In this document: piece after piece, positions 4-56,535 of the stretch | How positions within the stretch are numbered: the first letter of the stretch is position 1 | How the letters are laid out: every line of letters starts with the position of its first letter | Source of the DNA: a virus | DNA: 64,000 bases | Strand: one strand, 5' to 3' | IMG/VR virus record: IMGVR_UViG_3300046777_002658 | Location: 62,001-126,000 of that record | Notes under the pieces: generated by a model | Databases searched by the model: none | What the model saw: the letters and a program-made list of their open reading frames with translations, nothing else | What the model was told of the DNA's origin: nothing | Translations under genes and position numbers: made by a program

Positions 4-33
4 CACGACGAACGGTTCGTCGTGGGTATTTTT
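4..33 (+). terminator. Rho-independent terminator built on the ACGAAC-N-GTTCGT dyad
   Basis: CACGACGAAC and GTTCGTCGTG pair around one G and are followed by a T-rich run. This would end transcription from a gene left of the window. Its core is the G-centred member of the dyad family found six more times in the window. Confidence 0.7.
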
Positions 34-69
34 TATAGTCCGACAGCCGCTTAGACCAAGGAGGTTCGC

Positions 70-3000
70 ATGGCTTATCGACAACAACAAACCCTAGTTT
101 GTTCAGCTAAGGCAGAGGTTCGCCAGAATCAACCCAGCCATAGCGCCGTTGATACAGCCGCGCCTTCTGGTCAAACTAACTGTTCGGGTAACGAAAACAA
201 TTCTTCAAAGGTTTTAACCATGTCTTATTCCATGTCCGCTTTGTTACTTTCGTTGTCTATTGTCGTTAAAAGCGTAAAGAAGGTCGCTCCTTCTATGTCT
301 ATGAGAAATAAAGTAGCAAGAGCCTCCAGGAAGGCTCAACAACGTTTGGCACGAGCCAAGCGCCAAGCCAGACAAGTCAAGAATGGCTGGCTGCGCTCCT
401 CAGCGTATCAGAAGCTGTGTAGAGAGGCTGATCACGCCTCTCGTATCAGCTGCATCACTCCACCCGCCAGTAGTGCTGGTAAAGCTGGTTCATCCAGCAG
501 ACCTATTGTTAAATACTCCCGCCTATCAGATGGCGAAGGGGTATATGCCTTGACCCCAGCAATCCGAGTGCACAGAACCTTTGTGGCGCCGGTCACACGC
601 AGGGAACGACACCTTGCAGCTAGAGAGCAGCTTAAGGCTGCGGGACTGCTGCCTAACCAAGCCCCTGCTCTAGGCAAAGCTCTCAAGGAGCAACGTAAGG
701 CTAAAGCCAAAGTTAAGTCCTTAACCTTTAGTCCCGTCGCACGTCCACGGGATATAGAAAAAGCTGCCCAGCAGCTAGAGAAAGCTGCTGCCAAAGCAGC
801 AAGGCTTTCTGAAGTGGTTAAGGTTGCTGGGCACGCAGTAAGCAAGAAAAAAGAACAGAGAGAGGAAATCTTTGTTCAGAAAGTTGAGGCAGTAACCGCC
901 CCTCCAACTCTCTTAAAACTGGCCGCAAGATGCCAACGGCTAAGACAGAGATATTACAAAAGTCAAGACGAGCAAGACTACAAAGTCTGGCAAGAAGCAG
1001 AGGAAGATTATGCCTTTCTCTGCAAGAAAAAAGAACAGAGAGAGGAAATCTTTGTTCAAGAGGTTGTCACTCCAGATGACTTCCTAGCGCAGTTGGAGTT
1101 CTTAAGAACTCAGCTAGACCAAAATATGGCGCCTCCTGTTGTGCCACAAGAGTTTGCTACTGCAGCAGCAGAGATTGTGGATGACTACAAAGCCCAGGCA
1201 GAAGCCACAGGCACAAAGGATATGACCATGCTTATGTCCCTTTCATCCCCCATCAAAAACTCTGCTGGAGAGGATGTACAGGTTATAACCATTACAGGTA
1301 ACTGGAGTGGCAACGAGATTGACCCACAACTAAAAGCAGCCAGTAAAGATGTGATGGTGAACTTAGTGGGCAAGAACAAACTGCAAAAAGCAGAGTTCAC
1401 AAAACGAGGCTTTGTTCTTGTTACACAAGAGTGGTATTGTTTACCACTAGAGCAAAATAAACAACTAATTAAGGAAACACCAGTGAGACCACCAATTGTT
1501 TCCAGAACCAGCTCAAACCCACCAAAGCTGGTTAAAACAGACAGGGCTGATGGTGTTAAGTACCTGCACCTTTACCCTAACAGTGTTACACCCAAAAACA
1601 TTAAGGAACTTCTAGCCGAGCCCAAAGAGCTAGAAGTGCTTGTTAACATTAGCTCTGAACGGCTAATAGTTGAGAACCGGGATAAGTTTGTAGAGTTTCT
1701 CAGAGCTAATGGCTTTGAGAATTACTCTACTCACGCTGACTGGTTAGTCCTGCCAGCAGGTAGAAAGTTTGCAGAAAGAGTAGTTAAAGCTGGGGTTGTT
1801 TTCTCTGAAGAAGAGGAGTCATTTAACAAACTGTGGGTAACAGTTGATGGGGTTGACTTAGTAGAAGCTACCTTAGCTCCTCGCAAACCAACAGAAAATA
1901 TGGATGATATAGAAAATGAAGAGTTGTGGAACCGATTGGGTATAGCAGAAGCTGTACGCCAAGCAGTTGCTACAGCTCTTTCTGATTATCTGTATGCTGA
2001 TGTTTGGTTTAGCTATGACACAAGCATATCTCTGGAAGTAACTGAGCTTTTAGCAGAGTTTGGCTTTGCTTCTAAGTATGACTGCTTCTTGTTAAAACCA
2101 GCATTAAGAGAGCCAGTTAACAAGGATGTCAAATCTATGTACATCACAGTACATACAAAAACCAAAGCTGGTGTAGCTTCAGGTTCTTTCACTGTGGGTG
2201 ACACCACTATCCCAGTGGAAGTAGACCAAAAAGCTACAGAGCCAGCTAACAGACTGCTCTGTGTTAAGCAAGCAATCGCTTACGCTATTAACGCTGGGGC
2301 AAAGGCTGTTTCGGTAGAAGTCAGCCACGCTAACTATGACCTGAACAAGTTAGCTGCATGGAAAGCTGCTGGCTTTAAAGGCAAGTCTAATGTTGAGTTG
2401 CTAAAAGATATTGAGTCTCTGACTCACTACCTTTCTGTTACCTGGGTAAACCCTAAGAACAAAGCCAAAGAAGTGGCTAATACTGTAGTAAGAGAAACTG
2501 TGGCACAAGTAACAAAGGTGCAGGCTTCCGTAACCACATCCCATAAAGTAATTGGTGGAGAGGCTTATGCAGAAGAAGGCTTACTGTATTACCCTAAAAT
2601 CCTGTTTAAAGAAACCAGAGACTTACTGCTTGAAGATCTTCAAGCAGTTCTTGACAGTGGTGCTGTTGAGAAAACCAGCTTTGGTCCCTACCAGTACACC
2701 TGTTTAGGTGACTACTACTGGACATGGGAAAACAAGAAGGGTGTCTACTCTACCACTCAACCAAATGGCTCTCCTGTCGCAGCTGTACCAAAGCGGCTGA
2801 GAGAAATTGTTGAAGTCTGGTTAAATGGAGAGTTAAAAGTTTGGGAGGGTCAGTACGTAGTAGAATCTTGCCTTGTAAACTTCTACGAAGGCAAGCAGAA
2901 GCTAAACTGCCATCAAGACATCTCTGAAGAGATTGATGCTCCTATTGTCTCTTTCTCCTTTGGTGCTACTGGTCGTTTCCTCATTCGTGAGGGAGCTCGC

Positions 3001-6000
3001 ACTGGTCGTATCTCTCATGAGTTCACTTTAAGTGACTCTGACTTACTTGTTATGTATGGCAAGCACAGATACTGCTGGCATGAGTATGCTGGCAACATTG
3101 AATCTGGTACAAGGATAAACTTAACCTTCCGCATGGTTAAGAAGCCTGTAGTAACCCAACCAGAGGTAAGAACTGTGGAGCAAAGGACTGTAAAAACAGA
3201 ACGTCTTGTTGATACTACTGCAGTGAAGCAGAATCAACAGCCTGCAGCAAGAACTGTTCAGGATAGAGTAAGGGTTAACCCAGACTTCAAGCCTCAACCC
3301 AGAGCAAAAACCTTGCCGGAGCCTGGTTTGCTACCTCAGTCAGAGGTTGGCAGAATCAGTGGCACTCCTCAAGGTTGCTCTCACATCTTTGACTTTAAAA
3401 ACAATGAGTCTAAGAAAGGTCTTGATGAGGTTATTGTAGCAGCTTTCGCTGTAAGGTTAGACCCCGTTAAAGGGCAGCCTGTAGAGTGTAACATTAACAC
3501 TCCCTCATATGCTTATAACGATGAGTTTACTCACTACGGGTATGAAGATACTCTTACCACTAAAAAGGGTGAGAATATGAATGTTATAAGCTTGGGTGCA
3601 GCCGCTACAAAGGCTCTACCAGCTCATCTGACACCAATTATACTTTCTGTTTGCAACCACTGTTTAAATGGTGTGCGAGAAGAGTTTATACCCACAGCTC
3701 TATCATCAGTGAACAGAGTTAACAAGAAGGCTAATCTGCAGATTATTCTTGGGCAACCAGGTGGTGAATCCTGCTTGACCAAAGAGAAAGCCATCCAGGC
3801 ACCAGAATCTAGCTCTAGACAAAAGATGGGAGCAGCTATACTAGAAGGTGAGTCTAAAGAAATCCCTTCCGTAATATTCCACGATGACGGACAGGGACAT
3901 ACTCCCACGTTTGTTAAGTTAGAATTTTCTGGAGATGGTCTAGAAACTATTCTTGCAGACGGTAAGAGACACATCTTTATCGTAGTTGCTTGGTACGACA
4001 AGAGCAAGCAAACTTACTTTGAGAAGGGGGGTAAGCAGTACAGAATCTACCCCCACACTGCTAGTGTCTTCCATGTTGATGACTTAGAAGCTGTCTTTGG
4101 TGGTCAGAAAGTATTTAAGTTTGATGAAAGAGCTCTTCTAGGGTTATCAGCAGAGCCTGTAGTTGAGGCTAAAGCTGTTAAACCAGAGGTTAAAGCTCTT
4201 AACAGACCTCTTATCAAACCAGAACCAACAAAAGCAACCTCTGAAGAGGTTACAGAAGTTCAACAGTCTGTTGATAAGGCAAATCTAGCCAAAGAGCTGG
4301 CAGATCTTCACAAAGCCACCAGATTAAAAGGTCTTCCACTGACCAAAGGTCTAACAGAAGAAGACTTAGAGAGCATATTTGTTTGCATGAGTCCTGATGG
4401 TCAGATAGCTCACAGAACTCTAAGCTACATCAAGTCCAGAACCGATGGCAAACCTGTGCAGCTGTTTGATTGGACTAAAGCTGATGTTCTTAAGGTAGCA
4501 AAAGTTTTTGTAGACCTTTTATCGCCTACAAAAGCAACAGCAGATCAACAGGTGTTCCGCTACCGCAATACTGAAGAGGGCTTGTTGCTTTCCTTTGACG
4601 CTGGAACTATTGAGTTCTTGATAGGCAATGATGGTCGTGCTTATAATGCTGCTGATGGTCGTGCCTTTGAGCAAGGCATGGAGCTGATAGGGTACAACGC
4701 TTTAGATATGTCTTGGTGGGACTCTCCAGAGTATGCTAAAGCTAAAGCAGCACTAGCCGCTGCGGGTAAGAAAGAACCTGAAAAAGATGTTTCTTACTTC
4801 CAAATAGTTAATGGAGAGGTTCAGACCAGAGAGGAGTACAAACCTGAAATCACAGATGTTTGTTTCTCCTCCTCCATCGGTAAGTTCATGCAGGCTTTCT
4901 GTGCTTACTTATTGATGTTTGCTCAAAGCAAGAACAACACTCGGGGGGGCTTGGGTGACAACTTTAAGATTCTTTTGAACAAGTGCGAGAGTGTTATCTC
5001 TATGACCGAAGGAGATATCCTTGGTCAAAATGGAGGTTTCTTGTACTCTGTGCAAAACAGTCCTAAACTGTACGTTCACAGAGAGCAGTGTGACATATTT
5101 GCACTAGAAGAAGACAAGCTGAAAGACTTGGCTAATTCAGTGGCAACAGTAGTCAAGGGTTATGATAAAAAGCCACCAGAAGAGATGCTCAAAGTGTCTT
5201 CCACTGACACTCAGTCTCTAGCTATGAAAGAAGCTTTCAAGAAGTATCCTGCTTTGGGCTTCCACTTTGCTAAGGGTACTTTTATCAATGGTCTGACCCA
5301 TCTCAGACTAGCTACTCTTCAAAAGTATGCTCCAAACTTGTTTAATAAGACTCTGCAACTAACAGGGTTATCAGTTGAGGCTGCTGTTGAAAGTGTTGTC
5401 TCTTTAACTCTAAAAGCTTCTAAGGGTGCTAAACGAGCAACTTTAGCCTTAGCCAGAGCTGTTGAAGTGTTAGGAGAAGTGAAAGCTGGCTGGGCTTTCT
5501 ATGGTCAAGAGAAGGTGCTGACAGGCTGGCTTGTGCAAGAGTGTATGGCTCCTACATTTGTCATGGCTCCTGGTATGTCCTTCTTCTTAGGCAATGAGGA
5601 GGAGAAACCAGTTGCTTTAGTCAAGAAGACTCAGACACAAAACTACCCCAAGTTCTTGGCTAGTAACCTTGCTGAGGCTGTGAGCATGACAGGCGTTACT
5701 GAGTATCAAAGATGCCTGGCAGATCACAGACCCACTCAAACCTATGATGAGGTTTCAGCAACCTACCGCATCACCTTTGATAAAGAGGTAAAGCTAATCA
5801 AAGGCACAGAAATTGCTTTTGTTAAAAAGGAAGAGGGTCAGGGAGCCGATGCCGTCATTATTTTCAATGACAACGAGAGAGCCACTCTCAATGAGATAAC
5901 CTGGAGAGTCCATAAGGATCTTGTAGGTGAGTCAGTCTTGGTAGTCAACTACTCTTACACCCTACACCACCGCAACCCTAAACTGCGTGGTGTCATCAAA

Positions 6001-9000
6001 ACCATGATGGCTTCCTGCAGTAAAGAGTTGTTGTACAACTTCTTTAATGAGCCAAAGTTAACAGCTTTGGGATTAAAGGACATCAAGCTAGTATGCCCGC
6101 AGGATACTATCAAGTCTGATATGCTGTACTCTTGGCTAATGGTGATAGGTAACACTATCAGACACAACGACCCAACTAACCCTCACATTGCTAAGTTGAT
6201 TAGCTTAAGAGATCAACTCAATGAAGAGATGATGGGTGGTGCTGATTACGACCCTGACACCATTGTCATTAACCCAGCAGCAGTAGTAGCTGGTCTCTAC
6301 TCTGACTTGATTGCTTATTTTGTTAAGCACTTTGGTCATTCCTTATGGATGCACGTTCAACAACCAGAAGACCAAGGAGAGATCATGAATCGCCTGTATG
6401 TTGACCGCGTTGCCCAAAAAGCTGGCTGGGTAGAAGTACCTAAGATAGCTTGGGGTGAGTATGAGGAGGCTCTAGCTACAGCTAGACGTATGGAAGGCTA
6501 TACAGTCAAGCTATACGCAGAGTCAGTTGATTATCTAAAGAATGACAAGCAGAATGCTTTGTTGTTTACTTTAGACGCTGATGGAGTGGTAGTTGAATAC
6601 TTCCATCGTTCGTTCTGTTTTGTGGGTGCTGAAGGAGCACCTGTCTATGGTGTAGAGCTATTCGAGTCTAGCACTGTGGCTGAGGCTATCTCTGACTCCA
6701 GACATATGCCACCATCTGTGCGTTCACTCTCTCGCATGGAAGGAGTTGCTTTTGATGATGCTTGGGCGCTTCTAAACGCTGGTAAAGAGAAGATGTTTAT
6801 GTCTTTGGTGATTGCTGGAATGTCATCCTGTGACAAGTTCAACTGCTCTAAGACAATAACAATCCTAGAGCGTGGTGCTGAGAAGGACAAGAACCTGATT
6901 CTCTCTCCAGAAGACAAGGATTATTTCAATAGCATTTTAGTTGAGAACAAAATCAGCTTGGATTTCCATGAAGAGGAGCAGTTTAAAGCTGTAGCTTATG
7001 CGTTCAGAGATATTGTGTTTGTAGCTAAAGGCAAGACCTACTGGCTACCTGCTTTGTTTGCTATCAACAGCTTGAAGTCTGAAAACTCTACAAACAACCT
7101 TGCTCAACAGTTCTTTAGAGATATTCTTGTTGAGTGTCTAGCTGGCAGAACTGTGCCCGCAATAGAAGGTTCAAGAGCTGCTGGTATCTTGGATAGTCTA
7201 TGTGACTCTGCTTCTACCAAGAAGTTAATCACTGCTGCTGATAATATGGCAGCCAAGCGGATTGCTCTGGCTCACATTCCTGCTGGAGAGATTCATATTC
7301 TCAAGAGTACACATCCTGCCAGTAACTACCAAAACCTGCTCAGACACAAGTTTGACTTGAAGAGCGTAGAGGCTGGTAAGTCTACTATCTTTGTTCACAA
7401 CTCTCGCGCTCCTCTAACAGATGGTTGTCTGTTAAAGCTTGTAATAGTAACAGAAGAGCAAAACAGTAAGAACTTCTGGAAGTTAGACTCTGACAGCTTT
7501 GCTCTTGGGAGTATGGGTAACGGCATGGACTTTGGTGACTTTGACGGTGACGGTCACTATTTTGTTCAGCTTGTGGGCACTGACTATACAGTATCTACCT
7601 TTGACAGCATTGCTGACTTTATCACTGATGCTGTTGGGTACAACATTTTCAACACCTATGCCAACCCAGAGAATAAGAAAGGAGAGCCAAACGAAGCTTA
7701 CCTAGCTGACCACTACAACATCAAGAAGTGGTCTAAGGTTGATGAAACCTTATGCAATATGGGAGTCAAGAAGGCTACAAAGTCTAGTGCTACCTACTTG
7801 ATGTATAACCAGAATGCGCGTGAGATGCAAGCCAAAGCAACTGGCATTGCATACTCTGTGTATATGTGGTCTGAACACCTTGTAGACATCCTTCTAGCGT
7901 ACAAGAAGCTAGGCGGTGTTTTACCATTTGGTTTTGAAGCTGCTGCTGATGGTAGTTTAGTAGCCCCTATCTCTCAAGTGTACGAAGTTATTCTTGGTGG
8001 ATTTTCAGACCCTGCTTGGGCAGTCTACACCAAATACTTCCTCAAAATGAAGGAAGGTGAGCGCACAGTGTTTGACCATAACTTAGCCGAGTTTAACAAA
8101 GACTTGATGGCTATGGGCATCACTGGTCAAAAGCAAGCAGGGTTTAGTGCTCTGATGTTTGCTTCTTACCACTTATTCTTTTTAGAGAAGTGGGGTGAGT
8201 TCAATGACTATGAAGTAGACATGGTTACTAAGAACCCACTACCTTTAGAACTAAAAGGTATGTTAGCCTGCGCGTTGGTTTCCTTTGAGCTGATGCGAGG
8301 TAAGTTCCAAGGGTTTGTTGGTGCTCTGGAAGTCGAGAAAGGTGGTAAGGTGACAGGTCACAAGACTGCTATGAACTTTGCTAGAACCTTCCTATTAAAC
8401 AATCCAGGCATGGTGAGTGAGTCATTAGTTTGTAAACAACTAGCTCAAACTATTGAGGTTTGTAATCACCTGCTAGAAGGTAAGCCTCGCCCAGAAAGAA
8501 CTCTTGCAACACCAGGAGTTATTCAAGAGCGCACTGTAGCTGTTCCTACTTCTAACTTGTCTGATGAGGCTTTACAGTATTTCTTAACTAAAGTAGGTGC
8601 ATCTGCTGTGGTTAAGGAGACTAATGACTCTGATGATGAAGGTGGCAGCAAGGTTAGTGCAGAACCTAATACTCCTGACAATGGAGATGGTGGTGCAGCT
8701 GTAGAAGCTATAGACTATGCTGCTTATCTAGAAACTGAAGAAGTTGCTGCTCCTACAATTGAAGAGCTTGTGTCTGTTAGTTCTGCGGTAGTTGAAGAAT
8801 ACTACTCTGAGTCAGAGCTAGAAGAGCCAGAGTTTGCTGCTACCCCAGCTGTTCTTACAACATCTGAACCAAGCAGCTCACAGTATGAGTTTGATGCAGA
8901 TGGTTTTCTTGTAAATTGGCTAGACCACGCGCTTGCCACTATAAACTGGCAAGAAGAAACTCTTGTGATTGACTACACAGGTTCTAAACCTTGTTACTTA

Positions 9001-11826
9001 CTCAAGGGTGAAGGTCTCAAGTTGCACTCTTTAGTATCAAAAGGTTGGGGAGGAGCCTACTACTTTGAGGGCTTAGGAGAAGATAAAAAGGCTCCAGTCA
9101 TCTTTATGGATCAAAGTGTTGAAAGAACCGTGAAGGCAGACCAAGAGTTTAATGAGTTAGTGAGTTCTTGGGCTGAGTGGGCTGGAGAAACTATCGAGGC
9201 GCCAGAAGAGTTCTCAAAAGTCCTGATGGTCAGAGGTGAGGTAATAATCATTGAAGATGAAGATGAAGAAGAGCCAGTACAATCAGAGGTAATAGAGAAT
9301 GGAACAAAACAGAAGATGGCGACGTTAATGCAAGTGGTAGAACAACTACCAGAGTCTGCTTTAGATAAGCTACTAGCTGAGGGTGAAAGGCTACTAGCAG
9401 AATTAACCAAAACTAAAGAGCCAGTAAGAGAGGCTCTTAAAACAATAGAACCTACTGTTACCTGTACTTCCTGCTTAACAGTAGCAGAACCAGTTACTGA
9501 TGAAGCACCCTCTATAGACATACCTAGTGAAGGGACACAAAAGCAGTCAATAGTTAGTTTTACCTCCAGAACTAAGAGGGCTGACAAACCAGAAGTAACG
9601 AACAGTTCGTCAAGAGAGATTCTTCAAGCTGAGTCTGTTGTAGAAAATGTTGAAGTTGTAAAAGCTCATCCTTTAGATGGTCTTGCACCTTTGAGGTCTT
9701 CCACAGCAAAACACATGATTAAAGACATAGCTATGGCTGCTGTGGCTACTCAGTTCATTGGTACAAGTGCTGTATCTAAACCTTCTAGCACAGAGCTTTA
9801 CAGACAAGCCTGGGCTGATTGGAAAAGTGGTTGTGCCAACACAGGTGTCTACACTGCTGCTGACGTAGTAATGGTATCTGGTAACGGCTTGGGGAGGGCT
9901 ACAGAGGCTCAAATAGTAGAAACCTTTGCAAAGAGCTATATCCCCTACCTGTTGTTGGTAATCAATGCCAAAGCCACAGTAGTAGTTGGTGACTGTCCTG
10001 GTATGGACTGTTGTGTCAGAGATTACTTAGTGGGGCATGGCTATCAAAATACATGGGTTGCTGCCAAGATTGGTGGTTATAACAGACTCACACCTCCCAC
10101 CCAGCGAGAAAGAAAACTTGAGAGAGCTGTAGTTAAACAGTCTGTAGAAGCTGTAAAGATTCAACCAGAAGGAGACTGGGTTGAGGCTCTTGTTAGTAAG
10201 TTAGAGCCTTGGACTGGTAACCAGATAAAGAAAGCTCTAGCAACTCTTAGCTCTGAGCAGTTAGAGGCTGCTAGAATCATCATCCAACACGCTCTAAGCA
10301 ACACTACCGCTAAAGTTGCAGAGTTAGACCCTAAAGACGTGGTGGGTGGTCACATCCTCACTGGTAAAGCTGGTACTGGTAAAACCTACGCTACTCTTGT
10401 AATCATCATAGTCCTAGACTTGCTAGGCTTTCGTGTGGTAGCTTGCGGAACCACGGGTCTGGCTAGTCAAAATCTCAAAAACTCTTCTGGTACAATAAAC
10501 AGGGTTTTAAGCTTGGGTACAGGCTTTGAAGAGAGAAAAGATACTGAGGGAAACCTGCTGCCAAGAACTGAGGCAGACATTAGCCAGATAATACTCAAAA
10601 TGAGTAAGGATGGTAAAGTAGCCAAAAGACTATCTGAGCAAAGCAACAACAAGAACTATATAGGAGTAGTTCTGCTAGTTGATGAAGCCTTTATGCTTGG
10701 AGGAGATTTAGGTATCGCCGCTGCTGAGGGCTTAAAGACCATTGTTGGGCTAGAAGCTCAAAATGGTAAAGTCCGTCAGAGACCTATTCAGTTATTAATG
10801 GTTGGAGATCCTAAGCAGCTAGAACCAGTAAAAGACAGAATGATATTCGAGGAAGGTGAGTTCCTAGAATATTCTGACAGCACAGAAGTTCAGAAATACC
10901 ACGCTTTTACAGACCGTCTGAATCTAAAGGTTATTAAGCTAGAGAAGAACGAAAGGCAGTCTGGTGATACTGCTTTTGGCTTAGAGTTGGACTTGCTGGG
11001 AGAGGGTAAAGCTAAAACAGACCTGAGTAACTGTCCTGTTTTGTTGAGTAGATTTAAGGCTTCTCTCTCATGCCAACCCGCAGATGCTTTGCATATCATC
11101 TACAATAATGATGAAGTTGCCAAGTTTAATAAGTCTAAGCTAGACGAGCTTGTCAAAAAAGGTGCTTTCAAAAGAAAGTTTGAGGCAATTATTGACTCTA
11201 GTAGATGTGGCGAGAGTGAATTGCTATCTTACGTTGCTCCTACTCCTAGAACTTTAGAGTTAGTAGTGGGTGCTCCTGTCAGAGTAACCCAAAACATCCC
11301 TAAGAACGATGGCACAGACAATCTGTTAGTAGCTAATGGCGAGCGCGGAGTTGTGGCAAGCATGACCAAAGACAAAGTGACCGTCAAGTTCAAGGATGGT
11401 CGCTTTGAGGAGCTAGAAGCTGTAGAATCCAGAAAAATTCCGGTAGACGAAAATGGTGCACCAATAGGATCTTTCAGACAGCTTCCCTTATGCTTGTGTT
11501 GGGCTACTACTTTTCATGGTAGCCAAGGTCAAACCTACCCTAAAGGTGAACCTGTCATAGTGCATATGTACTCTCGTAAGGGAGGTAAGCATGATGGAGA
11601 GCTTCAAAGAGTATGGTCTAACAACGCGTTCTACGTTGCTTGTAGCCGCGTAACCCGCTCTAAAGACTTATTCTTTTACACCGGGTTGGGTGTTGATGAA
11701 AAAGCTGAAGGAGTGACTGATGAGGAGTTCACCAAGCAAAGGATGAACACTTACTTCAATCACTTCAAGCAAAGCTACAGATTCAATGAGAAGGCTATTG
11801 CTTGGTTAAACAAGCAGTCCTGCTAG
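70..11826 (+). CDS. Giant multidomain protein: AlkB-like oxygenase, two-barrel RNA polymerase-like core, SLOG-like domain, SF1 helicase
   Basis: A single 3918-residue frame that starts after a good AAGGAGG site. Residues 1-130 hold a short hydrophobic stretch and then a Lys/Arg/Ala-rich segment. A KKKEQREEIFVQ segment occurs twice, 60 residues apart (about 259 and 319). An AlkB-like 2-oxoglutarate/Fe(II) oxygenase lies near 870-1025: H948-x-D950, H1004 and the R1015-x-N1017-x-T1019-x-R1021 signature. H1966-R1968-N-P-K1971-L-R-G-V-I-K1977 resembles the lysine-bearing barrel of RNA polymerase beta. D2490-F-D2492-G-D2494, preceded by a beta-prime-like FVHNSRAPL segment, fits the metal-binding DxDGD loop of the second barrel. 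Residues 3264-3325 resemble a SLOG/DUF2493 fold (GDCPGMD). A RecD-like SF1 helicase closes the protein: GKAGTGKT 3432-3439, DE 3538-3539, GDPKQ 3579-3583, HGSQGQ 3816-3821, CSR 3858-3860. Motifs are read by eye. The oxygenase and helicase calls are strong; the polymerase call is good but inferred. Acidic linkers lie near 2850-3000. Confidence 0.85.
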   Translation: MAYRQQQTLVCSAKAEVRQNQPSHSAVDTAAPSGQTNCSGNENNSSKVLTMSYSMSALLLSLSIVVKSVKKVAPSMSMRNKVARASRKAQQRLARAKRQARQVKNGWLRSSAYQKLCREADHASRISCITPPASSAGKAGSSSRPIVKYSRLSDGEGVYALTPAIRVHRTFVAPVTRRERHLAAREQLKAAGLLPNQAPALGKALKEQRKAKAKVKSLTFSPVARPRDIEKAAQQLEKAAAKAARLSEVVKVAGHAVSKKKEQREEIFVQKVEAVTAPPTLLKLAARCQRLRQRYYKSQDEQDYKVWQEAEEDYAFLCKKKEQREEIFVQEVVTPDDFLAQLEFLRTQLDQNMAPPVVPQEFATAAAEIVDDYKAQAEATGTKDMTMLMSLSSPIKNSAGEDVQVITITGNWSGNEIDPQLKAASKDVMVNLVGKNKLQKAEFTKRGFVLVTQEWYCLPLEQNKQLIKETPVRPPIVSRTSSNPPKLVKTDRADGVKYLHLYPNSVTPKNIKELLAEPKELEVLVNISSERLIVENRDKFVEFLRANGFENYSTHADWLVLPAGRKFAERVVKAGVVFSEEEESFNKLWVTVDGVDLVEATLAPRKPTENMDDIENEELWNRLGIAEAVRQAVATALSDYLYADVWFSYDTSISLEVTELLAEFGFASKYDCFLLKPALREPVNKDVKSMYITVHTKTKAGVASGSFTVGDTTIPVEVDQKATEPANRLLCVKQAIAYAINAGAKAVSVEVSHANYDLNKLAAWKAAGFKGKSNVELLKDIESLTHYLSVTWVNPKNKAKEVANTVVRETVAQVTKVQASVTTSHKVIGGEAYAEEGLLYYPKILFKETRDLLLEDLQAVLDSGAVEKTSFGPYQYTCLGDYYWTWENKKGVYSTTQPNGSPVAAVPKRLREIVEVWLNGELKVWEGQYVVESCLVNFYEGKQKLNCHQDISEEIDAPIVSFSFGATGRFLIREGARTGRISHEFTLSDSDLLVMYGKHRYCWHEYAGNIESGTRINLTFRMVKKPVVTQPEVRTVEQRTVKTERLVDTTAVKQNQQPAARTVQDRVRVNPDFKPQPRAKTLPEPGLLPQSEVGRISGTPQGCSHIFDFKNNESKKGLDEVIVAAFAVRLDPVKGQPVECNINTPSYAYNDEFTHYGYEDTLTTKKGENMNVISLGAAATKALPAHLTPIILSVCNHCLNGVREEFIPTALSSVNRVNKKANLQIILGQPGGESCLTKEKAIQAPESSSRQKMGAAILEGESKEIPSVIFHDDGQGHTPTFVKLEFSGDGLETILADGKRHIFIVVAWYDKSKQTYFEKGGKQYRIYPHTASVFHVDDLEAVFGGQKVFKFDERALLGLSAEPVVEAKAVKPEVKALNRPLIKPEPTKATSEEVTEVQQSVDKANLAKELADLHKATRLKGLPLTKGLTEEDLESIFVCMSPDGQIAHRTLSYIKSRTDGKPVQLFDWTKADVLKVAKVFVDLLSPTKATADQQVFRYRNTEEGLLLSFDAGTIEFLIGNDGRAYNAADGRAFEQGMELIGYNALDMSWWDSPEYAKAKAALAAAGKKEPEKDVSYFQIVNGEVQTREEYKPEITDVCFSSSIGKFMQAFCAYLLMFAQSKNNTRGGLGDNFKILLNKCESVISMTEGDILGQNGGFLYSVQNSPKLYVHREQCDIFALEEDKLKDLANSVATVVKGYDKKPPEEMLKVSSTDTQSLAMKEAFKKYPALGFHFAKGTFINGLTHLRLATLQKYAPNLFNKTLQLTGLSVEAAVESVVSLTLKASKGAKRATLALARAVEVLGEVKAGWAFYGQEKVLTGWLVQECMAPTFVMAPGMSFFLGNEEEKPVALVKKTQTQNYPKFLASNLAEAVSMTGVTEYQRCLADHRPTQTYDEVSATYRITFDKEVKLIKGTEIAFVKKEEGQGADAVIIFNDNERATLNEITWRVHKDLVGESVLVVNYSYTLHHRNPKLRGVIKTMMASCSKELLYNFFNEPKLTALGLKDIKLVCPQDTIKSDMLYSWLMVIGNTIRHNDPTNPHIAKLISLRDQLNEEMMGGADYDPDTIVINPAAVVAGLYSDLIAYFVKHFGHSLWMHVQQPEDQGEIMNRLYVDRVAQKAGWVEVPKIAWGEYEEALATARRMEGYTVKLYAESVDYLKNDKQNALLFTLDADGVVVEYFHRSFCFVGAEGAPVYGVELFESSTVAEAISDSRHMPPSVRSLSRMEGVAFDDAWALLNAGKEKMFMSLVIAGMSSCDKFNCSKTITILERGAEKDKNLILSPEDKDYFNSILVENKISLDFHEEEQFKAVAYAFRDIVFVAKGKTYWLPALFAINSLKSENSTNNLAQQFFRDILVECLAGRTVPAIEGSRAAGILDSLCDSASTKKLITAADNMAAKRIALAHIPAGEIHILKSTHPASNYQNLLRHKFDLKSVEAGKSTIFVHNSRAPLTDGCLLKLVIVTEEQNSKNFWKLDSDSFALGSMGNGMDFGDFDGDGHYFVQLVGTDYTVSTFDSIADFITDAVGYNIFNTYANPENKKGEPNEAYLADHYNIKKWSKVDETLCNMGVKKATKSSATYLMYNQNAREMQAKATGIAYSVYMWSEHLVDILLAYKKLGGVLPFGFEAAADGSLVAPISQVYEVILGGFSDPAWAVYTKYFLKMKEGERTVFDHNLAEFNKDLMAMGITGQKQAGFSALMFASYHLFFLEKWGEFNDYEVDMVTKNPLPLELKGMLACALVSFELMRGKFQGFVGALEVEKGGKVTGHKTAMNFARTFLLNNPGMVSESLVCKQLAQTIEVCNHLLEGKPRPERTLATPGVIQERTVAVPTSNLSDEALQYFLTKVGASAVVKETNDSDDEGGSKVSAEPNTPDNGDGGAAVEAIDYAAYLETEEVAAPTIEELVSVSSAVVEEYYSESELEEPEFAATPAVLTTSEPSSSQYEFDADGFLVNWLDHALATINWQEETLVIDYTGSKPCYLLKGEGLKLHSLVSKGWGGAYYFEGLGEDKKAPVIFMDQSVERTVKADQEFNELVSSWAEWAGETIEAPEEFSKVLMVRGEVIIIEDEDEEEPVQSEVIENGTKQKMATLMQVVEQLPESALDKLLAEGERLLAELTKTKEPVREALKTIEPTVTCTSCLTVAEPVTDEAPSIDIPSEGTQKQSIVSFTSRTKRADKPEVTNSSSREILQAESVVENVEVVKAHPLDGLAPLRSSTAKHMIKDIAMAAVATQFIGTSAVSKPSSTELYRQAWADWKSGCANTGVYTAADVVMVSGNGLGRATEAQIVETFAKSYIPYLLLVINAKATVVVGDCPGMDCCVRDYLVGHGYQNTWVAAKIGGYNRLTPPTQRERKLERAVVKQSVEAVKIQPEGDWVEALVSKLEPWTGNQIKKALATLSSEQLEAARIIIQHALSNTTAKVAELDPKDVVGGHILTGKAGTGKTYATLVIIIVLDLLGFRVVACGTTGLASQNLKNSSGTINRVLSLGTGFEERKDTEGNLLPRTEADISQIILKMSKDGKVAKRLSEQSNNKNYIGVVLLVDEAFMLGGDLGIAAAEGLKTIVGLEAQNGKVRQRPIQLLMVGDPKQLEPVKDRMIFEEGEFLEYSDSTEVQKYHAFTDRLNLKVIKLEKNERQSGDTAFGLELDLLGEGKAKTDLSNCPVLLSRFKASLSCQPADALHIIYNNDEVAKFNKSKLDELVKKGAFKRKFEAIIDSSRCGESELLSYVAPTPRTLELVVGAPVRVTQNIPKNDGTDNLLVANGERGVVASMTKDKVTVKFKDGRFEELEAVESRKIPVDENGAPIGSFRQLPLCLCWATTFHGSQGQTYPKGEPVIVHMYSRKGGKHDGELQRVWSNNAFYVACSRVTRSKDLFFYTGLGVDEKAEGVTDEEFTKQRMNTYFNHFKQSYRFNEKAIAWLNKQSC
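842..1058 (+). repeat. 37-bp exact direct repeat inside the giant gene
   Basis: Copies at 842-878 and 1022-1058 lie exactly 180 bp apart, so the frame is kept. Each contains CAAGAAAAAAGAACAG, nearly identical to the intergenic promoter-like motif used elsewhere in the window. Confidence 0.9.
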
Positions 11827-35216: not shown

Positions 35217-35702
35217 TACAAACATACTTTTATTATGTTGCTACAACAAATCAAGCCTTTTACAGAAGAACAGGTTAGGAAAGTTTACCCCTTAGAGCAA
35301 GTAAAGGCTATCTTTGCTGGTGAACTAATAGCAGAGGGAAATGTTTACTGTGACTTTAGTGCCTCTTTACTAACAAATGACTATTTTCTTAGCGAAGCCT
35401 ACTTTATTGGCACAAGTGGAGCAGCTAGTCACACAGATGATGAATTTGCACAGTATGCTTATCATTTAGTGCTAGTTAACACAGGGTTAGTAGCTAAAGG
35501 TGTTAACCAACAAAACAACTTTGAACCACAAGTACCAGGTACAATCATCGTCTTAAACAATTGGGAATGGCATCACGCTATTAAAGACTCAAGAATTGGG
35601 ACTTCTGAAGATCCTATTTGGGTTTCTATTTGCTTTGATAGTGATTATGAGCTCACTGAAGAACAATTGATAAATATATTCAAGGAGTTTTTGAATGACT
35701 AA
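35214..35702 (+). CDS. Possible small 2OG-Fe(II) oxygenase- or cupin-like protein, 162 residues
   Basis: Segments ASHTDDEFAQYAYHLVLVN and PGTIIVLNNWEWHHAI give an HxD...H order with a Gly before the distal His, as in 2-oxoglutarate/Fe(II) oxygenases and some cupins. The Arg that binds oxoglutarate is not obvious. It overlaps the GHKL gene by 8 bases, so the two are coupled. Another start at 35235 is possible. Confidence 0.55.
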   Translation: MYKHTFIMLLQQIKPFTEEQVRKVYPLEQVKAIFAGELIAEGNVYCDFSASLLTNDYFLSEAYFIGTSGAASHTDDEFAQYAYHLVLVNTGLVAKGVNQQNNFEPQVPGTIIVLNNWEWHHAIKDSRIGTSEDPIWVSICFDSDYELTEEQLINIFKEFLND

Positions 35703-37371
35703 CACATTTAAGATAGGTATCAGCCCAAAGATTCTCGACAAAGCTAGAAACTTTTTTAACTCAACAACTGAAGATATTCTCAATGAGTTACTGCAGAACT
35801 CCCGCAGAGCAGGAGCCACTAAAGTTAAAGTTACAAAGAGTGTTAATGACAACACAGTAATTATTGAAGATAACGGCATAGGAATCTTTAATAACGGCGT
35901 GGCAATCAATCTTGGTGGCAGCAGTTGGTCTTCTAAAACTCAAGAAAAAGAAAGTCCTGCAGGTTGTGGGCTGTTCTCTCTAGCTAATCTTGACAGTATT
36001 ATAGAATCACACGGTAAGAAAGTACGCTTAAATGCTGCGGCATTTAATGGTGCAAGAGAAGTGGAGATTGAAGAATCAGATTTCCTAAATGGCACTAGAA
36101 TTACGTTTAGAAACGATGACAACGAGACCTTTTTCAATTGGATTCTAAAGAAAGCTTGTAAGTTTTACCCAGTTGAGGTTGAGTATAACGGAGTAGATCT
36201 GGACAAACCTAAGGATTTTCTAGAAGATGCTGTCTATGTACAAGAGTGGGAAGGTCTCAGAATTGGTGTTGTAAAAACTTACCAAAGGGTTGGCTCTGTG
36301 ATTAAGCTAAACTTCTATGGTTTAGAGATTAACTGCCCAGACCGAAGGAGACCTTACTTTAACGGAGTATTAGACAAAGAAGACCTACTTATAAAAATAG
36401 ACATCATAGATTGCTCTAAGTTGCAACTAGTCTTGCCCTCGCGTAAGGAAGTCGTATCAAATGACTTTTTAGAGCTGCTGTTTCAACAGGGTAGAAAGGC
36501 TGTCTTTAACTACTTTAAAGACTACTGTGCCGCTGGTGGTACCCATACCCTAAGTTATACGCTGTGGTTAGAAGCTAAGAATTGTTTTGGCATAGAACTA
36601 CCAGAAGCCAAAGAGAGTCTTATTAAATGGTATCCAGAGACAGATAAATATCATAATGAGTTTTGTAGTGAGCACGTAGAAGTAAAAGCTACAAATGTCG
36701 TGATCTACAACATTGCGCAGGAAAACTATGAGCAGCACACTCTCTACCGTAGTCTATGTATAAATAACAAGGCTCCAACATTGGTTTTTGCTAATAAAGA
36801 CTATGAGGGGTACTCCTGGTACAAGAGCCTTCCTAAACTAAAAGAAGTAGAAACAAAACTTACTTACAAAGGAATTACAGTTTCACTGCAGGAGGAGATA
36901 AACGAAGACCAAACTGATCTTCGACCTGACTGTATAGAGCTAGAGTTGGTCATAGAAACTTGTGGGTTAGATACAACAATAACTCTTTACACAGACCTTG
37001 TTTTAGCTGGTGGAGAATACTGCTGTGACCTCTATGAAGCAATAATCTTTTTGTCTAAAGATAGCAAAATAGAATTAGAGGAGCTAGTTAATGTTTTAAC
37101 TTTATGCTTTTTTATTCCCTGTGAAGATAGCGGCTCTGACAGTTATGAAACTCAAATGGAATATTTCAGTGGTGAAGTCTGGTCTCTTGCCAGGAGTTTA
37201 CTGCTGTCAGAAAAAGAGGCTGCTTTAGCAAGTATACAAGAGGCTGTAGAAAACCATATACGCTGTCTTGTCCCTTCTGGAAACAGGGCTGTAATTAAAA
37301 TTCAGCAGGGCTTAGTTACAGTTGACCTGGAGCTTCTAACAGAAAATACCCTTGAAGCAGTAAAAGAATAG
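35695..37371 (+). CDS. GHKL (Hsp90-type) ATPase-domain protein, 558 residues
   Basis: N-terminal ATP lid motifs: N35 in NELLQNSRRAGAT, D59-N-G-I-G63, and GCGLFSL at 90-96. This is the Bergerat fold of Hsp90, MutL and MORC-type ATPases. The remaining 450 residues are unrecognised and end in a helical part. Different from the rIIA-like gene at 43514. Coupled to the small oxygenase-like gene. May remodel a protein or DNA complex; the target is unknown. Confidence 0.8.
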   Translation: MTNTFKIGISPKILDKARNFFNSTTEDILNELLQNSRRAGATKVKVTKSVNDNTVIIEDNGIGIFNNGVAINLGGSSWSSKTQEKESPAGCGLFSLANLDSIIESHGKKVRLNAAAFNGAREVEIEESDFLNGTRITFRNDDNETFFNWILKKACKFYPVEVEYNGVDLDKPKDFLEDAVYVQEWEGLRIGVVKTYQRVGSVIKLNFYGLEINCPDRRRPYFNGVLDKEDLLIKIDIIDCSKLQLVLPSRKEVVSNDFLELLFQQGRKAVFNYFKDYCAAGGTHTLSYTLWLEAKNCFGIELPEAKESLIKWYPETDKYHNEFCSEHVEVKATNVVIYNIAQENYEQHTLYRSLCINNKAPTLVFANKDYEGYSWYKSLPKLKEVETKLTYKGITVSLQEEINEDQTDLRPDCIELELVIETCGLDTTITLYTDLVLAGGEYCCDLYEAIIFLSKDSKIELEELVNVLTLCFFIPCEDSGSDSYETQMEYFSGEVWSLARSLLLSEKEAALASIQEAVENHIRCLVPSGNRAVIKIQQGLVTVDLELLTENTLEAVKE

Positions 37372-38958: not shown

Positions 38959-39939
38959 ATGCAAACAAAATCAATTCCACCCAACTTGGAAAAGTTGGAG
39001 CATCTCAGAAGTCTTAAATCATCTATTCAGCACCGTCCACGCTCTTTGGCTAACTTTATTAAACCAAATGGACGCAGTGCTGATTTTTGTTTATCTATAG
39101 CCTATGGTTGTCTGCTGGGCTGCTCCTACTGTTATGTTCAACGCAACAACATTAATGGTAATCCTCTTACAATCTACTCAAATCGTAAAGAGCTGTTCAA
39201 TAAAGTAGTAAAGTGGCATAGTCAACTACCTAGCACTAAGCCTAAAAGCTTTAAACCTTGTGACTCTCCTTACCCTTCAGGAGAGTCAGACCAAATCAAC
39301 TATACCTATGACATAGGAGAGTCAGTAGATTTGTTGTTGAAAACTCTCTCAGAAGACGTTAATTGGTGGTTAGAAAAGCTAGTTGCTGTCTCTAGACTGA
39401 AACCCACCTTTGCAACAAAGATATCAACCCCTGTGGCTGTATCTTGTCTGATTGACTGTCCAAGCCCCCGCAAAGCCCGCATCAGAGCTTCTGTAGCCCC
39501 GCAGCATATTATAGACCAAACAGAGGTTCTTACAGCTAGTGTGAGCGATCGCATTGCTGGTCTGAATCTTGCCTATCAGAAAGGCTATGAGTGTCACTTG
39601 AACTTTAGCCCTATAGTTATTACTCCTACTTGGGTTGAGGACTACAAGAATCTTTTTCTTCAGATAGATCAATTGCTATCAGCAGAGGTAAAAGAACAGT
39701 TGCGCTGCGAGGTCATATTCCTAACTCACCATGAGAAGTTATCTCAATGGAACAGGGAAAACTTTCCTACAGATAGTGAGTCCTTATTGTGGACTCCTAA
39801 AAATCAAGAAAACAAAACTAATGGGCGTGGCTCCCAAGTTAGACGTTACAAATGGCAGCTTAAGTCTCTTTACGTAAACACTTTTAGACAGCTATTAGCA
39901 GAGTATATGCCTTATTGTAAAATAAGGTATAGCTTTTAG
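38959..39939 (+). CDS. Radical SAM protein of the spore photoproduct lyase type
   Basis: 326 residues. C51-x3-C55-x2-C58 (CLLGCSYC) binds the 4Fe-4S cluster. The context AYGCLLGCSYCYVQR and the closing segment YKWQLKSLYVNTFRQLLAEYMPYCKIRYSF (shown in part) fit the SPL family, which reverses UV-made thymine photoproducts using SAM instead of light. A phage of sunlit water would gain genome repair. Other radical SAM roles remain possible. The start is placed at the ATG at 38959, after TTAGCTTCCTC. Confidence 0.8.
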   Translation: MQTKSIPPNLEKLEHLRSLKSSIQHRPRSLANFIKPNGRSADFCLSIAYGCLLGCSYCYVQRNNINGNPLTIYSNRKELFNKVVKWHSQLPSTKPKSFKPCDSPYPSGESDQINYTYDIGESVDLLLKTLSEDVNWWLEKLVAVSRLKPTFATKISTPVAVSCLIDCPSPRKARIRASVAPQHIIDQTEVLTASVSDRIAGLNLAYQKGYECHLNFSPIVITPTWVEDYKNLFLQIDQLLSAEVKEQLRCEVIFLTHHEKLSQWNRENFPTDSESLLWTPKNQENKTNGRGSQVRRYKWQLKSLYVNTFRQLLAEYMPYCKIRYSF

Positions 39940-40705: not shown

Positions 40706-41464
40706 ATGCTAAAGGATTTGATAAAGTCTAAAAAGAAAAAAATAGAACTTCTTGTAGAACTTCTTAAAGAGAAGCTAGACAAAAAAAGCAAGAAGCCACA
40801 ACGTTGGGTTCTGAGATTTACAAACTCTCAGGGATTTGCTAAAGAATCCTTACTAAACTTGCTGACAGAAATTGGCTTGTTCCAGTTCTACTCTAAGAAC
40901 AACAGTAAGCTACTTAACGTCTCTCAAGTAGTGTATTACTTAAAGAGCGGCTGGAAAGCACTAGAAAATGGTTACACAGCAGGCAAGTCATCTGAGGTAG
41001 AAATTCATCATATAGATGGTGATATTACCAACGATAGCCCTCACAACTTGGTTGCTTTATTCAGTGGAGACCACTATTACGTCTCTGCTTGCCAAAATGG
41101 AACTTTCAGACTGGAAGATTTTTTCTGGCAGAATAGCAAAGCCACCGACCAGCCAACCCTCTTTAATAATCAAGGTAGACCAATCAAGAACCACGCTAAG
41201 TTCCTGCAACGCATAATCGCAGCTACCCTCTTCAACACCCAACGCTGGCTAGAAAAAGCAGCAATGCGAACAGGTGCTAAGGTTAAGCAGATAGTAGGCT
41301 GGGTGGTCAAAAAGCTGGGTCAAGCAGTTGAAAAAGGTGTTCAGGCTATCAAGGCTATAGCAGTGAAGCCCCAAGAAAATCAGCTCGGCAGCCCTTTACT
41401 TAACTCTCCCAAAACTACTTGGAGAGAACTCAGAAGAGCTATTCTCAAACCTGTTATAGTTTGA
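40706..41464 (+). CDS. HNH endonuclease, 252 residues
   Basis: HNH_3-type core: H101-H102-I-D104-G-D...H113-N114-L (EIHHIDGDITNDSPHNLVAL). The N-terminus is strongly basic; the C-terminal 100 residues are Lys-rich and helical (KVKQIVGWVVKKLGQAVEKGVQAIKAIAVK). Probably a free-standing homing-type nuclease. The start at ATG 40706 is favoured because an upstream GTG-type start lies in the terminator of the RNA. It directly follows the large structured RNA. Confidence 0.8.
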   Translation: MLKDLIKSKKKKIELLVELLKEKLDKKSKKPQRWVLRFTNSQGFAKESLLNLLTEIGLFQFYSKNNSKLLNVSQVVYYLKSGWKALENGYTAGKSSEVEIHHIDGDITNDSPHNLVALFSGDHYYVSACQNGTFRLEDFFWQNSKATDQPTLFNNQGRPIKNHAKFLQRIIAATLFNTQRWLEKAAMRTGAKVKQIVGWVVKKLGQAVEKGVQAIKAIAVKPQENQLGSPLLNSPKTTWRELRRAILKPVIV

Positions 41465-41466
41465 AT

Positions 41467-41523
41467 GCAAGAAAAAAGAATAGAGAATGATAAAAGATAA
41501 AACAAAGTTGACGAACAGTTCGT
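41467..41523 (+). promoter_or_regulatory. A-tract motif followed by the ACGAACAGTTCGT dyad
   Basis: GCAAGAAAAAAGAATAGAGA at 41467-41486; dyad at 41511-41523, 25 bases later. If the motif is a promoter, this places the dyad in the leader, where a repressor could bind. Confidence 0.55.
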
Positions 41524-41570
41524 CGCTGCTATGATTCTGTTAATTAATAAGGTATCAACAATGTTTGACT

Positions 41571-41765
41571 ATGAAAACACAACAGGAAGCTGTACACGTC
41601 CTTCTCCAGAACGGCTGGAGTACAAAGGAAATAAACCTTTTATTCAACCGGAAGCAATCTTGCCCTATTCCACCTTGGAGTCCAGAGAAACAACAAATCG
41701 CTCAGTCGTCTTCTACAAAAGCCTTGAGTATTTCTTTCTCTATTCCCAAAACTTCCCAGAGCTAG
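41571..41765 (+). CDS. Uncertain small gene, 64 residues
   Basis: Two frames overlap here. This one (MKTQQEAVHVLLQNGWSTKE...) has a helix-turn-helix-like start. The other (ATG 41561 to 41785, 74 residues) has a better AAGG site. Only one is probably real. Confidence 0.35.
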   Translation: MKTQQEAVHVLLQNGWSTKEINLLFNRKQSCPIPPWSPEKQQIAQSSSTKALSISFSIPKTSQS

Positions 41766-41804
41766 GAGTAATAATAGGGGGTTAATGTACAAAAGGAAAA
41801 CAAC

Positions 41805-42020
41805 ATGACAGAAGATATAAAATCATTAGCTCTACAAGCAGTTCAAACATGGGGTAACAAACCTCAGTTGTCTCAAGCTACAGAAGTAGCAGAAGAAGTG
41901 GCTGACTGCCAGCTAATGCTTGAACAGATAAAGCTGATAGTTGGCATACCAAAAGATGTTATGCAAGAAGTACAGCAGACCAAGCTTAAGAAGCTGAAGA
42001 GAGGGTTAAATGCAGAGTAA
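41805..42020 (+). CDS. MazG-like protein lacking its first metal motif, 71 residues
   Basis: The end EVAEEVADCQLMLEQIKLIVG and the start LALQAVQTWGNKPQLSQAT fit the short phage MazG-like family, but the usual EELxEL(I/V) segment between them is absent. This looks like an in-frame deletion of about 20-25 residues that removes the first ExxE pair. Enzyme activity is therefore doubtful. Confidence 0.6.
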   Translation: MTEDIKSLALQAVQTWGNKPQLSQATEVAEEVADCQLMLEQIKLIVGIPKDVMQEVQQTKLKKLKRGLNAE

Positions 42021-42198
42021 AAGAGCTAGACGTAGGGCTAGAGGGTTAGAGAGAGTTAAGAAGATAATCAGGAGTTTAACAGGGACTTTTAGTTTTGAGT
42101 ATACTCACATAGTAATAAGAAGAGGCAGTGTTCAAGCTTTCTGCCTACCGTCTGGCTTTTTATTAAACTTATCTACTCCTGGTCTGTACTCGTTATGA
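42010..42198 (+). CDS. Basic hypothetical protein, 62 residues
   Basis: Overlaps the previous gene by 11 bases and the next by 4, so the three are coupled. A very basic start (SKRARRRARGLERVKKIIRSL) suggests nucleic-acid binding. Family unknown. Confidence 0.55.
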   Translation: MQSKRARRRARGLERVKKIIRSLTGTFSFEYTHIVIRRGSVQAFCLPSGFLLNLSTPGLYSL

Positions 42199-43263: not shown

Positions 43264-43423
43264 ACCCTTAACTGTACTAGAGTTTCTCTTAAAAGTTATG
43301 ATTCTAAACTCAAGGATGACTCAAGTTAACCTAGTCAAAGCAACTAAAAAGTTACAAAAAGCAAAGCTAAAACTAATAACAAGCAAAAAGCCGACAGAGC
43401 CAGGCAAAACAACTTACACATAA
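43223..43423 (+). CDS. Small basic protein, 66 residues
   Basis: ATG at 43223 with TTAAGGAG upstream inside the previous gene; a second ATG at 43253 is possible. The last 35 residues are Lys-rich (KATKKLQKAKLKLITSKK). Ends just before a terminator. Confidence 0.45.
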   Translation: MGSNYQVVNNMAVKPLTVLEFLLKVMILNSRMTQVNLVKATKKLQKAKLKLITSKKPTEPGKTTYT

Positions 43424-43429
43424 GTAGAT

Positions 43430-43495
43430 GGTCTTCTAGAAATAGAAGACCTTTTCTTTTTAATAGTATCAAGCAAGAAAAAAGAATAAAGTACG
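43430..43495 (+). promoter_or_regulatory. Terminator plus A-tract motif cassette
   Basis: GGTCTTCTA-gaaa-TAGAAGACC with TTTTCTTTTT (43430-43461), then GCAAGAAAAAAGAATAAAGT at 43473-43492. Confidence 0.7.
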
Positions 43496-43513
43496 AATAA
43501 AAGTTTGATTAAT

Positions 43514-55452: not shown

Positions 55453-55482
55453 TTGTTTATCTGTTGGTTGGCATACTATAAT
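55453..55482 (+). promoter_or_regulatory. Sigma-70-type promoter for the sigma-factor gene
   Basis: TTGTTT (55453-55458), 18-base spacer, TATAAT (55477-55482). Its position argues that translation begins at 55510. Confidence 0.6.
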
Positions 55483-55511
55483 AGTGCTAACAAACAGCAT
55501 TTGAGCACTAT
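55481..55511. promoter_or_regulatory. 8-bp dyad over the -10 end and start codon
   Basis: ATAGTGCT (55481-55488) and AGCACTAT (55504-55511) are inverted repeats spanning the transcription start and the ATG. A likely operator, perhaps for autoregulation. Confidence 0.5.
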
Positions 55512-56535
55512 GGGCAGACCAAAGAAAATAACAACTAACACCCTTTATAGTTTGCATACAGAAAGAACCAAAACACCCAGAGAACTGGACTGTCTAGGTT
55601 CTTTTTTAAATTTGATAGGTAGACATAGGCTACTCACAGAACAAGAAACTAATGACTATAGCCTATCAGTAAGAAAAGCTATGACTATTGTAGAAGCTAA
55701 TCCAGCTCTAAAATTAAACTTGACTATGAAGTCTTTTACTGAAGAGCAAGCTAAGGCAGTAGGAATGTCTCAAAAAGAACTAAATATAATATTTAATAGA
55801 GCCGCTCACGCTAAAAATAAACTTATAGTTTCAAACCTAAGACTTGTTGTTATTCTTGCTAAAGGATACGCCAGAAGGCAGGAAGAATCACTTGTAGACC
55901 TAATTCAGGAAGGATCAGTTGGACTAAACAGAGCTGCTGAAAAGTTTGATTCCACAAAAGGGTTCAAGTTTAGCACGTATGCTTCTTGTTGGATAAGACA
56001 ATCTATTTCTAGGTCTATAACACAGCACAGTAGAGCTATCCGTCTTCCAGCAATGGTGTACGAAGAGGTTAATAAGCTAAAAAGAACTGTAAAAGCTTTT
56101 ACAGCAGATAAGGGCTATAACCCAACAATTGCTGAACTAGCAACTCTTTTAGGAAAAAGCGAAGAGAGAGTACAGCAGTTGCATAACTGGTGTAGAAGAG
56201 TGTGCTCCTCAGACATTACTGTAAAGCAAGGCAACAGTGATACTACTTTGGAAGAGCTGATGCCATCTCCAGATAATACTGATTTAATACTACAGGAAAT
56301 AGGCTATCCTACTGTTTTGGAAATGATGATGTCTGACACGCCTGATCGTGAAAGAAAACTACTGAACTGGAAGTATGGTCTAGATGGTGAAGAACCCCTA
56401 TCTGCTTTCGAGATAGGGGCTCTTATTGGTGTTTCCCCGGAAAGGGTGAGACAGATATGCAACCAGGAGCTAAGGAGGCTAAAAGAAAAAGCTGATAGAC
56501 AAGGTTTAAGGGGTGACGAGGTTTTTTGTATATAG
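55510..56535 (+). CDS. Phage-encoded sigma-70 family factor (RpoD-like), 341 residues
   Basis: Region 1.2-like RELDCLGSFLNLIGRHRLLTEQE; region 2 LIVSNLRLVVILAKGYARRQEESLVDLIQEGSVGLNRAAEKFD (in part) and FSTYASCWIRQSISRSI (2.3-2.4); region 3 RLPAMVYEEVNKL...NPTIAELATLLGKSEERVQQL; region 4 SAFEIGALIGVSPERVRQICNQELRRLKE. It resembles cyanobacterial group 2 sigma factors, so it was probably taken from a host. It would direct host RNA polymerase to phage promoters, possibly the late structural genes. Confidence 0.9.
   Translation: MGRPKKITTNTLYSLHTERTKTPRELDCLGSFLNLIGRHRLLTEQETNDYSLSVRKAMTIVEANPALKLNLTMKSFTEEQAKAVGMSQKELNIIFNRAAHAKNKLIVSNLRLVVILAKGYARRQEESLVDLIQEGSVGLNRAAEKFDSTKGFKFSTYASCWIRQSISRSITQHSRAIRLPAMVYEEVNKLKRTVKAFTADKGYNPTIAELATLLGKSEERVQQLHNWCRRVCSSDITVKQGNSDTTLEELMPSPDNTDLILQEIGYPTVLEMMMSDTPDRERKLLNWKYGLDGEEPLSAFEIGALIGVSPERVRQICNQELRRLKEKADRQGLRGDEVFCI

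Follow-up and report, generated by a model that had tools for sequence, protein, structure and literature searches.

A giant phage protein joining a two-barrel RNA polymerase-like core to an SF1 helicase in one chain

The window analyzed here, 64,000 nucleotides spanning positions 62001-126000 of the 196,877-base IMG/VR record IMGVR_UViG_3300046777_002658 (contig G000), encodes a protein of 3918 amino acids in which a two-barrel RNA polymerase-like core is followed by a helicase of the Pif1/Dda SF1 type at the C-terminus. We are fairly confident that this is a DNA-dependent two-barrel RNA polymerase (RNAP) of the phage, made as one chain with its helicase, its catalysis being predicted. The coordinates of all features are collected in Table 1.

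The phage is tailed, with a genome encoding a contractile-tail sheath, a terminase, RIIA-like proteins and giant tail fibres. Its terminase is closest to those of Microcystis phages (36% identity), which suggests a cyanobacterial host. The window phage also has two HATPase/RIIA-like genes (window 35695-37371 and 43505-45880) and a spore photoproduct lyase-like DNA repair gene (window 38959-39939; Pfam PF20903, E 6e-20). Several large-terminase genes of the group (L002:12238-14457; L010, L011, L014) carry apparent intein-like or other insertions and range from 739 to about 1470 aa.

The initial annotation had described a single 3918-residue protein, and the frame is indeed open throughout behind a good ribosome-binding site, with all the motifs named for it at the residues given. 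A start at M51 was rejected because the Shine-Dalgarno sequence is placed to serve the ATG at 70. An assembly or ORF-fusion artefact is likewise ruled out, with related long ORFs in eight other contigs and dN/dS values far below 1. The sequence GAYTTYGAYGGNGAY is found at a single place in the record of 196,877 bases.

Table 1. Positions of the features in the window (all on the plus strand; residues are those of the 3918-aa protein)
Feature	Residues	Position	Strand	Evidence
Intrinsic-terminator-like end of the upstream unit: 9-bp perfect stem, then T-run		4..34	+	directly read
Shine-Dalgarno AAGGAGG		58..64	+	directly read, just 5' of the ATG at 70
Giant ORF, 3918 aa		70..11826	+	no interruption; 8 further contigs have relatives (1442-4239 aa)
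Very basic stretch, 14 K/R in 40	79-118	304..423	+	sequence composition
AlkB-type 2OG-Fe(II) oxygenase	837-1021	2578..3132	+	Pfam PF13532, E 1.9e-28
Two-barrel RNA polymerase-like core	about 1720-2840	5227..8589	+	alignments A6/A9, AF2 models, Foldseek
DPBB-B, predicted beta/Rpb2-like barrel region with K1971, R1973, K1977	about 1800-2070	5467..6279 (approximate)	+	pLDDT, Foldseek, invariant columns
DPBB-A-like segment, RxP (2446, 2448) and GDFDGD (2489-2494)	2441-2510	7390..7599	+	nine-way invariance, YonO and RdRP profiles
DFDGD, predicted Mg2+-binding catalytic motif		7537..7551	+	invariant column GDxDGD
SLOG-like domain	about 3264-3340	9859..10089	+	homologues B and E have matching SLOG-like segments (hhalign E 1.2e-4)
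SF1 helicase, Pif1/RecD/Dda type	3428-3901	10351..11772	+	phrog_325 E 1.6e-35, PF13604
Sigma-70 family factor, regions 2, 3, 4; candidate for host-polymerase redirection		55453..56535	+	Pfam PF04542, PF04539, PF04545

The enzymes flanking the core were assigned correctly at the outset, and their fusion to it in one open ORF is real. The AlkB-like oxygenase carries HQD at 948 and RINLTFR at 1015-1021, giving the HxD...H and RxNxTxR motifs on the PF13532 domain. The SF1 helicase is Dda-like by its PHROG match, resembles Pif1 in the PDB (E 2e-6) and has the full motif set, Walker A, a DE motif II and motifs III-VI, read as GKAGTGKT (3432), VDEAF (3537), GDPKQLEPV (3579), GSQGQT (3817) and VACSRVT (3856). 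The proposed SLOG-like domain is weak and nonetheless supported by its match to the segments of two homologues, B and E, in which it is clearer than in the window protein; none of A, B and E gave a SLOG match in Pfam at the thresholds applied.

Homologues were found by tracing contigs through terminase relatives and then searching these contigs for the core. IMG/VR yielded eight divergent proteins, nine with the window protein (A): B (G004, 4182 aa), C (G005, 3452), D (G010, 3186), E (G009, 4239), F (G007, 2319), G (G013, 1969), H (G011, 1442) and I (G015, 1829), with 20-28% identity to A. All nine core-bearing contigs examined, the window record included, are related through terminase. The core is present in every examined contig of at least 150 kb (8/8, again counting the window record) and in the 101-kb G005; the contigs lacking it, of 31-138 kb, are shorter and possibly fragmentary. 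By tblastn against INPHARED phages, the window core had no match, nor had homologue B, and homologue C matched generic helicases only; bacterial and archaeal genomes gave no core with the two patterns applied. Basic stretches near the N-terminus, as in the window protein, recur in homologues B, C, E and G. A hydrophobic N-terminal stretch preceding the basic region is seen in several homologues, including A (window 214-300) and G (L074:3004-8910), and the combined region could be a processing or targeting signal.

Only the core is common to all nine proteins. The helicase is C-terminal in A-F (six of nine, window included), and in H, where the core stands nearly alone, it is a separate gene directly downstream (8642-10783 of L075; BLAST E 1e-23 to the window helicase); near G and I no helicase was found. 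Fusion in six proteins and adjacency in a seventh are the best evidence that the helicase and the core work together, and the two form a conserved unit. Between C and D, dN/dS is about 0.08 for the core, about 0.04 for the helicase and about 0.17 for the linker; purifying selection thus acts on both enzymatic parts, which are maintained. A 388-aa gene upstream of H was considered as an unfused N-terminal domain and set aside, having nothing in its favour beyond low complexity.

The remaining domains vary. By Pfam, C and F have the helicase only, and most of the length of D matches C; B adds NADAR, DUF4326, a SLOG-like segment and AlkB, and E adds an AAA_33 kinase, a SLOG-like segment and, read by eye, a zincin-like HEFGH motif. 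AlkB occurs in A and B only (38% identical), N-terminal to the core in A and C-terminal to it in B, which rules it out as an integral part, and the original description of a transcription, repair and unwinding machine was accordingly overstated. Because domain sets and the position of AlkB differ among homologues, the accessory domains are interchangeable and AlkB is a swappable accessory. AlkB enzymes reverse alkylation. NADAR enzymes reverse ADP-ribosylation of guanine (PMC11125620, PMC11543638). Given these two activities, a common theme of base un-marking is possible.

Such variable sets, together with the HEFGH motif of E, would also suit a polyvalent conflict protein that enters with the injected DNA. 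Its polymerase-derived core would then be one effector or protection domain among others, maybe acting on host nucleic acid and not transcribing the phage genome. The polyvalent proteins of phages and plasmids are very large and multidomain (PMC5512222), and the window family resembles them in size, in its many domains and in its swappable accessory enzymes. It differs in that the polymerase core is what stays constant, its catalytic-type residues being invariant and its strong constraint shared with the helicase; in H this core dispenses with nearly everything else, and virion carriage of the 3918-aa protein is unsupported. We therefore consider the conflict-protein explanation unlikely.

The evidence for a polymerase lies in the core itself. 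In alignments of eight to nine homologues (A6/A9, the latter with all nine over 900 positions), K1971, R1973, K1977, R2446, P2448 and G2489-D2490-x-D2492-G2493-D2494 (window numbering) are invariant in 9/9, as are a D-K-D triplet just past the K1971-K1977 group and YExxLG at 2638-2643. In the window protein these columns fall in HRNPKLRGVIK (1967), FVHNSRAP (2441) and DFDGD (2490), and invariance in nine divergent homologues means that the K, R, K, RxP and GDxDGD motifs are not a matter of chance. The core profile aligns with the YonO family at hhalign E 0.001, with RxP and DxDGD in register and a score of 41.5 compared with at most 27.6 among 300 shuffled decoys. Much of this score comes from the motif: with GDxDGD masked, the match falls to E 0.27 in the same register. 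Since tblastn finds no match in phages and hhalign gives E 0.91 for the single sequence and E 0.001 for the profile, the window core counts as a relative, not a member, of the YonO-like RNAPs.

The DPBB-A fragment of homologue H matches Pfam RdRP (PF05183) at E 0.0067, below the curated cut-off; no Pfam RNAP family reached threshold on the core, and a sequence profile search of the core found no RNAP chains in the PDB. A conserved helical region containing the invariant YExxLG follows DPBB-A, where the model is of low confidence, and neither a bridge helix nor a trigger loop was identified in the core. Pfam's lone hint for the window's own DPBB-A segment, an FG-GAP repeat at E 0.004, lies below threshold; it would fit DFDGD being an acidic loop, of the calcium type or due to chance, in a core that is no polymerase at all. 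This explanation is highly improbable in view of the nine-way conservation across the 900-position alignment, the RdRP and YonO profile matches and the beta/Rpb2 structural matches.

The structural matches come from AlphaFold models searched with Foldseek. The model of window residues 1720-2840 scores low as a whole (pLDDT 53.5) and well around the lysine region, where its pLDDT is highest, and 15 of its 17 best PDB matches are beta/Rpb2-type RNAP chains or assemblies, led by the second-largest subunits of Pol II, plastid RNAP, Pol I and Pol III (best E 2.7e-3, prob 1.00). For the model of homologue H, all 50 of the PDB matches listed are of this type (best E 1e-5, prob 1.0). Among viral models, a protein of Acinetobacter phage ME3 with 798 aa matches best (E 1.4e-4), and giant-virus RNAP subunits come next. 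These matches to beta/Rpb2 subunits make the lysine-bearing barrel (DPBB-B) a well-supported prediction of a beta/Rpb2-like fold. The DPBB-A region is modelled at pLDDT <50 in both the window core and homologue H, and the DxDGD barrel is likely on its conserved motifs. Of the two-barrel core first postulated, the lysine barrel thus withstands the refutation by structure prediction that was proposed with it, and the DxDGD barrel, modelled at low confidence, is supported by sequence.

A two-barrel replication enzyme, such as a PolD-like DNA polymerase or a primase, coupled to a helicase would account for part of these observations. Dda/Pif1 helicases usually serve replication, and the helicase link is conserved. 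The two-barrel superfamily moreover includes archaeal PolD (PMC4996933). However, the Foldseek matches are RNAP beta-type chains and not PolD, the sequence is in register with YonO and RdRP, and the genome has another DNA-polymerase/exonuclease-like ORF (135360-137768; phrog_31382 E 1e-23, phrog_17 E 9e-16), which together leave a replicative role improbable.

As an RNA polymerase, the protein would work as follows. DPBB-A would hold two Mg2+ ions through D2490, D2492 and D2494, and DPBB-B would supply the basic residues K1971 and K1977, as in YonO, QDE-1 and cellular polymerases. The giant protein may load on phage DNA through its helicase and the basic N-terminal stretch; the helicase, of the 5'-3' kind, would open the duplex ahead of transcription or at its start, replacing other melting help, and the two-barrel core would transcribe phage genes. 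In the window phage, AlkB could repair alkylated bases on the exposed strands, and across the group the AlkB, SLOG, NADAR, DUF4326 and kinase modules may clean phage nucleic acid or shield it from damage or from host defence. The 3918-aa protein is probably made after entry, in the infected cell and from its own ribosome-binding site, as a polymerase of the non-virion kind.

A second giant protein, of 3920 aa (record 41425-53187; L004:3425-15187), begins beside the structural cluster and has two PLD-like HxK motifs near its N-terminus and RxGxP followed by GDNDGD late in the chain. Of 14 contigs searched, 10 encode a relative, with lengths of about 3,100 to 5,400 residues, and RxGxP...GDxDGD is kept in all ten that were aligned. 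At this motif, the profile of the family also aligns to that of the window family (E 0.0019). By itself it has no match to the YonO profile, and the second giant protein has none in named phages. The shared motif suggests two two-barrel polymerases per genome. Two RNAPs per phage are known from phiKZ (PMC4666361) and P23-45 (PMC10770324). The second protein is a better virion candidate than the 3918-aa protein, and may act as the virion-type polymerase. The host RNAP is probably used too, as the window encodes a complete sigma-70 factor. Separately, a 4239-aa giant protein on the minus strand (record 183614-196333; L009:1614-14333) has many hydrophobic places, PLD-like HxK motifs and, by eye, a C-terminal M23-peptidase-like segment, making it an ejection or tape-measure candidate.

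More tentatively, the whole group might share a new class of transcription machine in which one chain unwinds with its own helicase, transcribes with a two-barrel core and meanwhile reverses base lesions or ADP-ribose/alkyl marks, in phages with two giant two-barrel polymerases, one virion-type and one cell-made, and a sigma factor for the host enzyme. If the two polymerases do coexist in each genome, the virion/non-virion division known for phiKZ and P23-45 reaches a further phage group, one that is uncultivated. With lengths between 1442 and 4239 aa and one helicase as a separate neighbour gene, the homologues provide a natural series for studying the assembly of the machine and its minimal core, and homologue H, the smallest, is a practical target for structure and activity work.

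Single-chain two-barrel RNAPs are already known (YonO, QDE-1, phi14:2 gp66, P23-45 gp64/gp96), as are RNAPs buried in giant virion proteins. To our knowledge, no cellular-type (two-barrel) polymerase has its own DNA helicase in the same chain, and fusion of a two-barrel polymerase to an SF1 helicase or to AlkB was not found in the literature covered, open-licence papers. Among the closest comparisons is YonO of phage SPbeta, a single-chain two-barrel RNAP of 839 aa (PMC5467207), with an RxP lead-in and then a D-rich catalytic motif in register with the window core; it has no fused helicase or oxygenase, and the similarity is seen only profile-to-profile. QDE-1 and the eukaryotic-type RdRPs are linked by the sub-cut-off match of homologue H, whereas the DPBB-B model resembles beta/Rpb2 chains.

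Among phages, the crAss-like phi14:2 encodes gp66 (6VR4), cited in PMC10770324 as a large single-chain two-barrel virion RNAP, a description that the predicted window core shares; the core-family profile had no match to the phi14:2 record in a search that also missed YonO and is thus insensitive at such distance. P23-45 has a tape-measure-fused virion RNAP, gp96, and a non-virion RNAP, gp64 (PMC10770324). Here the likeness lies in a predicted single-chain two-barrel RNAP within a giant protein and in a candidate second RNAP in the same phage; the P23-45 fusion is to a tape measure and not to a helicase or AlkB, and with gp64 only DxDGD aligns. In phage ME3 (KU935715.1 222114-226849, L116), ME3_309 has 798 aa, the length of the best viral fold match, and ME3_307 has DVDGD; ME3_308 between them is a T5orf172-domain protein of the homing-endonuclease kind, and together ME3_309 and ME3_307 resemble a single two-barrel RNAP gene into which ME3_308 has come. 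The neighbouring ME3_305 was ruled out as AlkB, belonging to a different 2OG-Fe family (PF13759). Compared with the Dda/Pif1/RecD SF1 helicases, finally, the window helicase has the same complete motifs and differs in being fused to a polymerase core.
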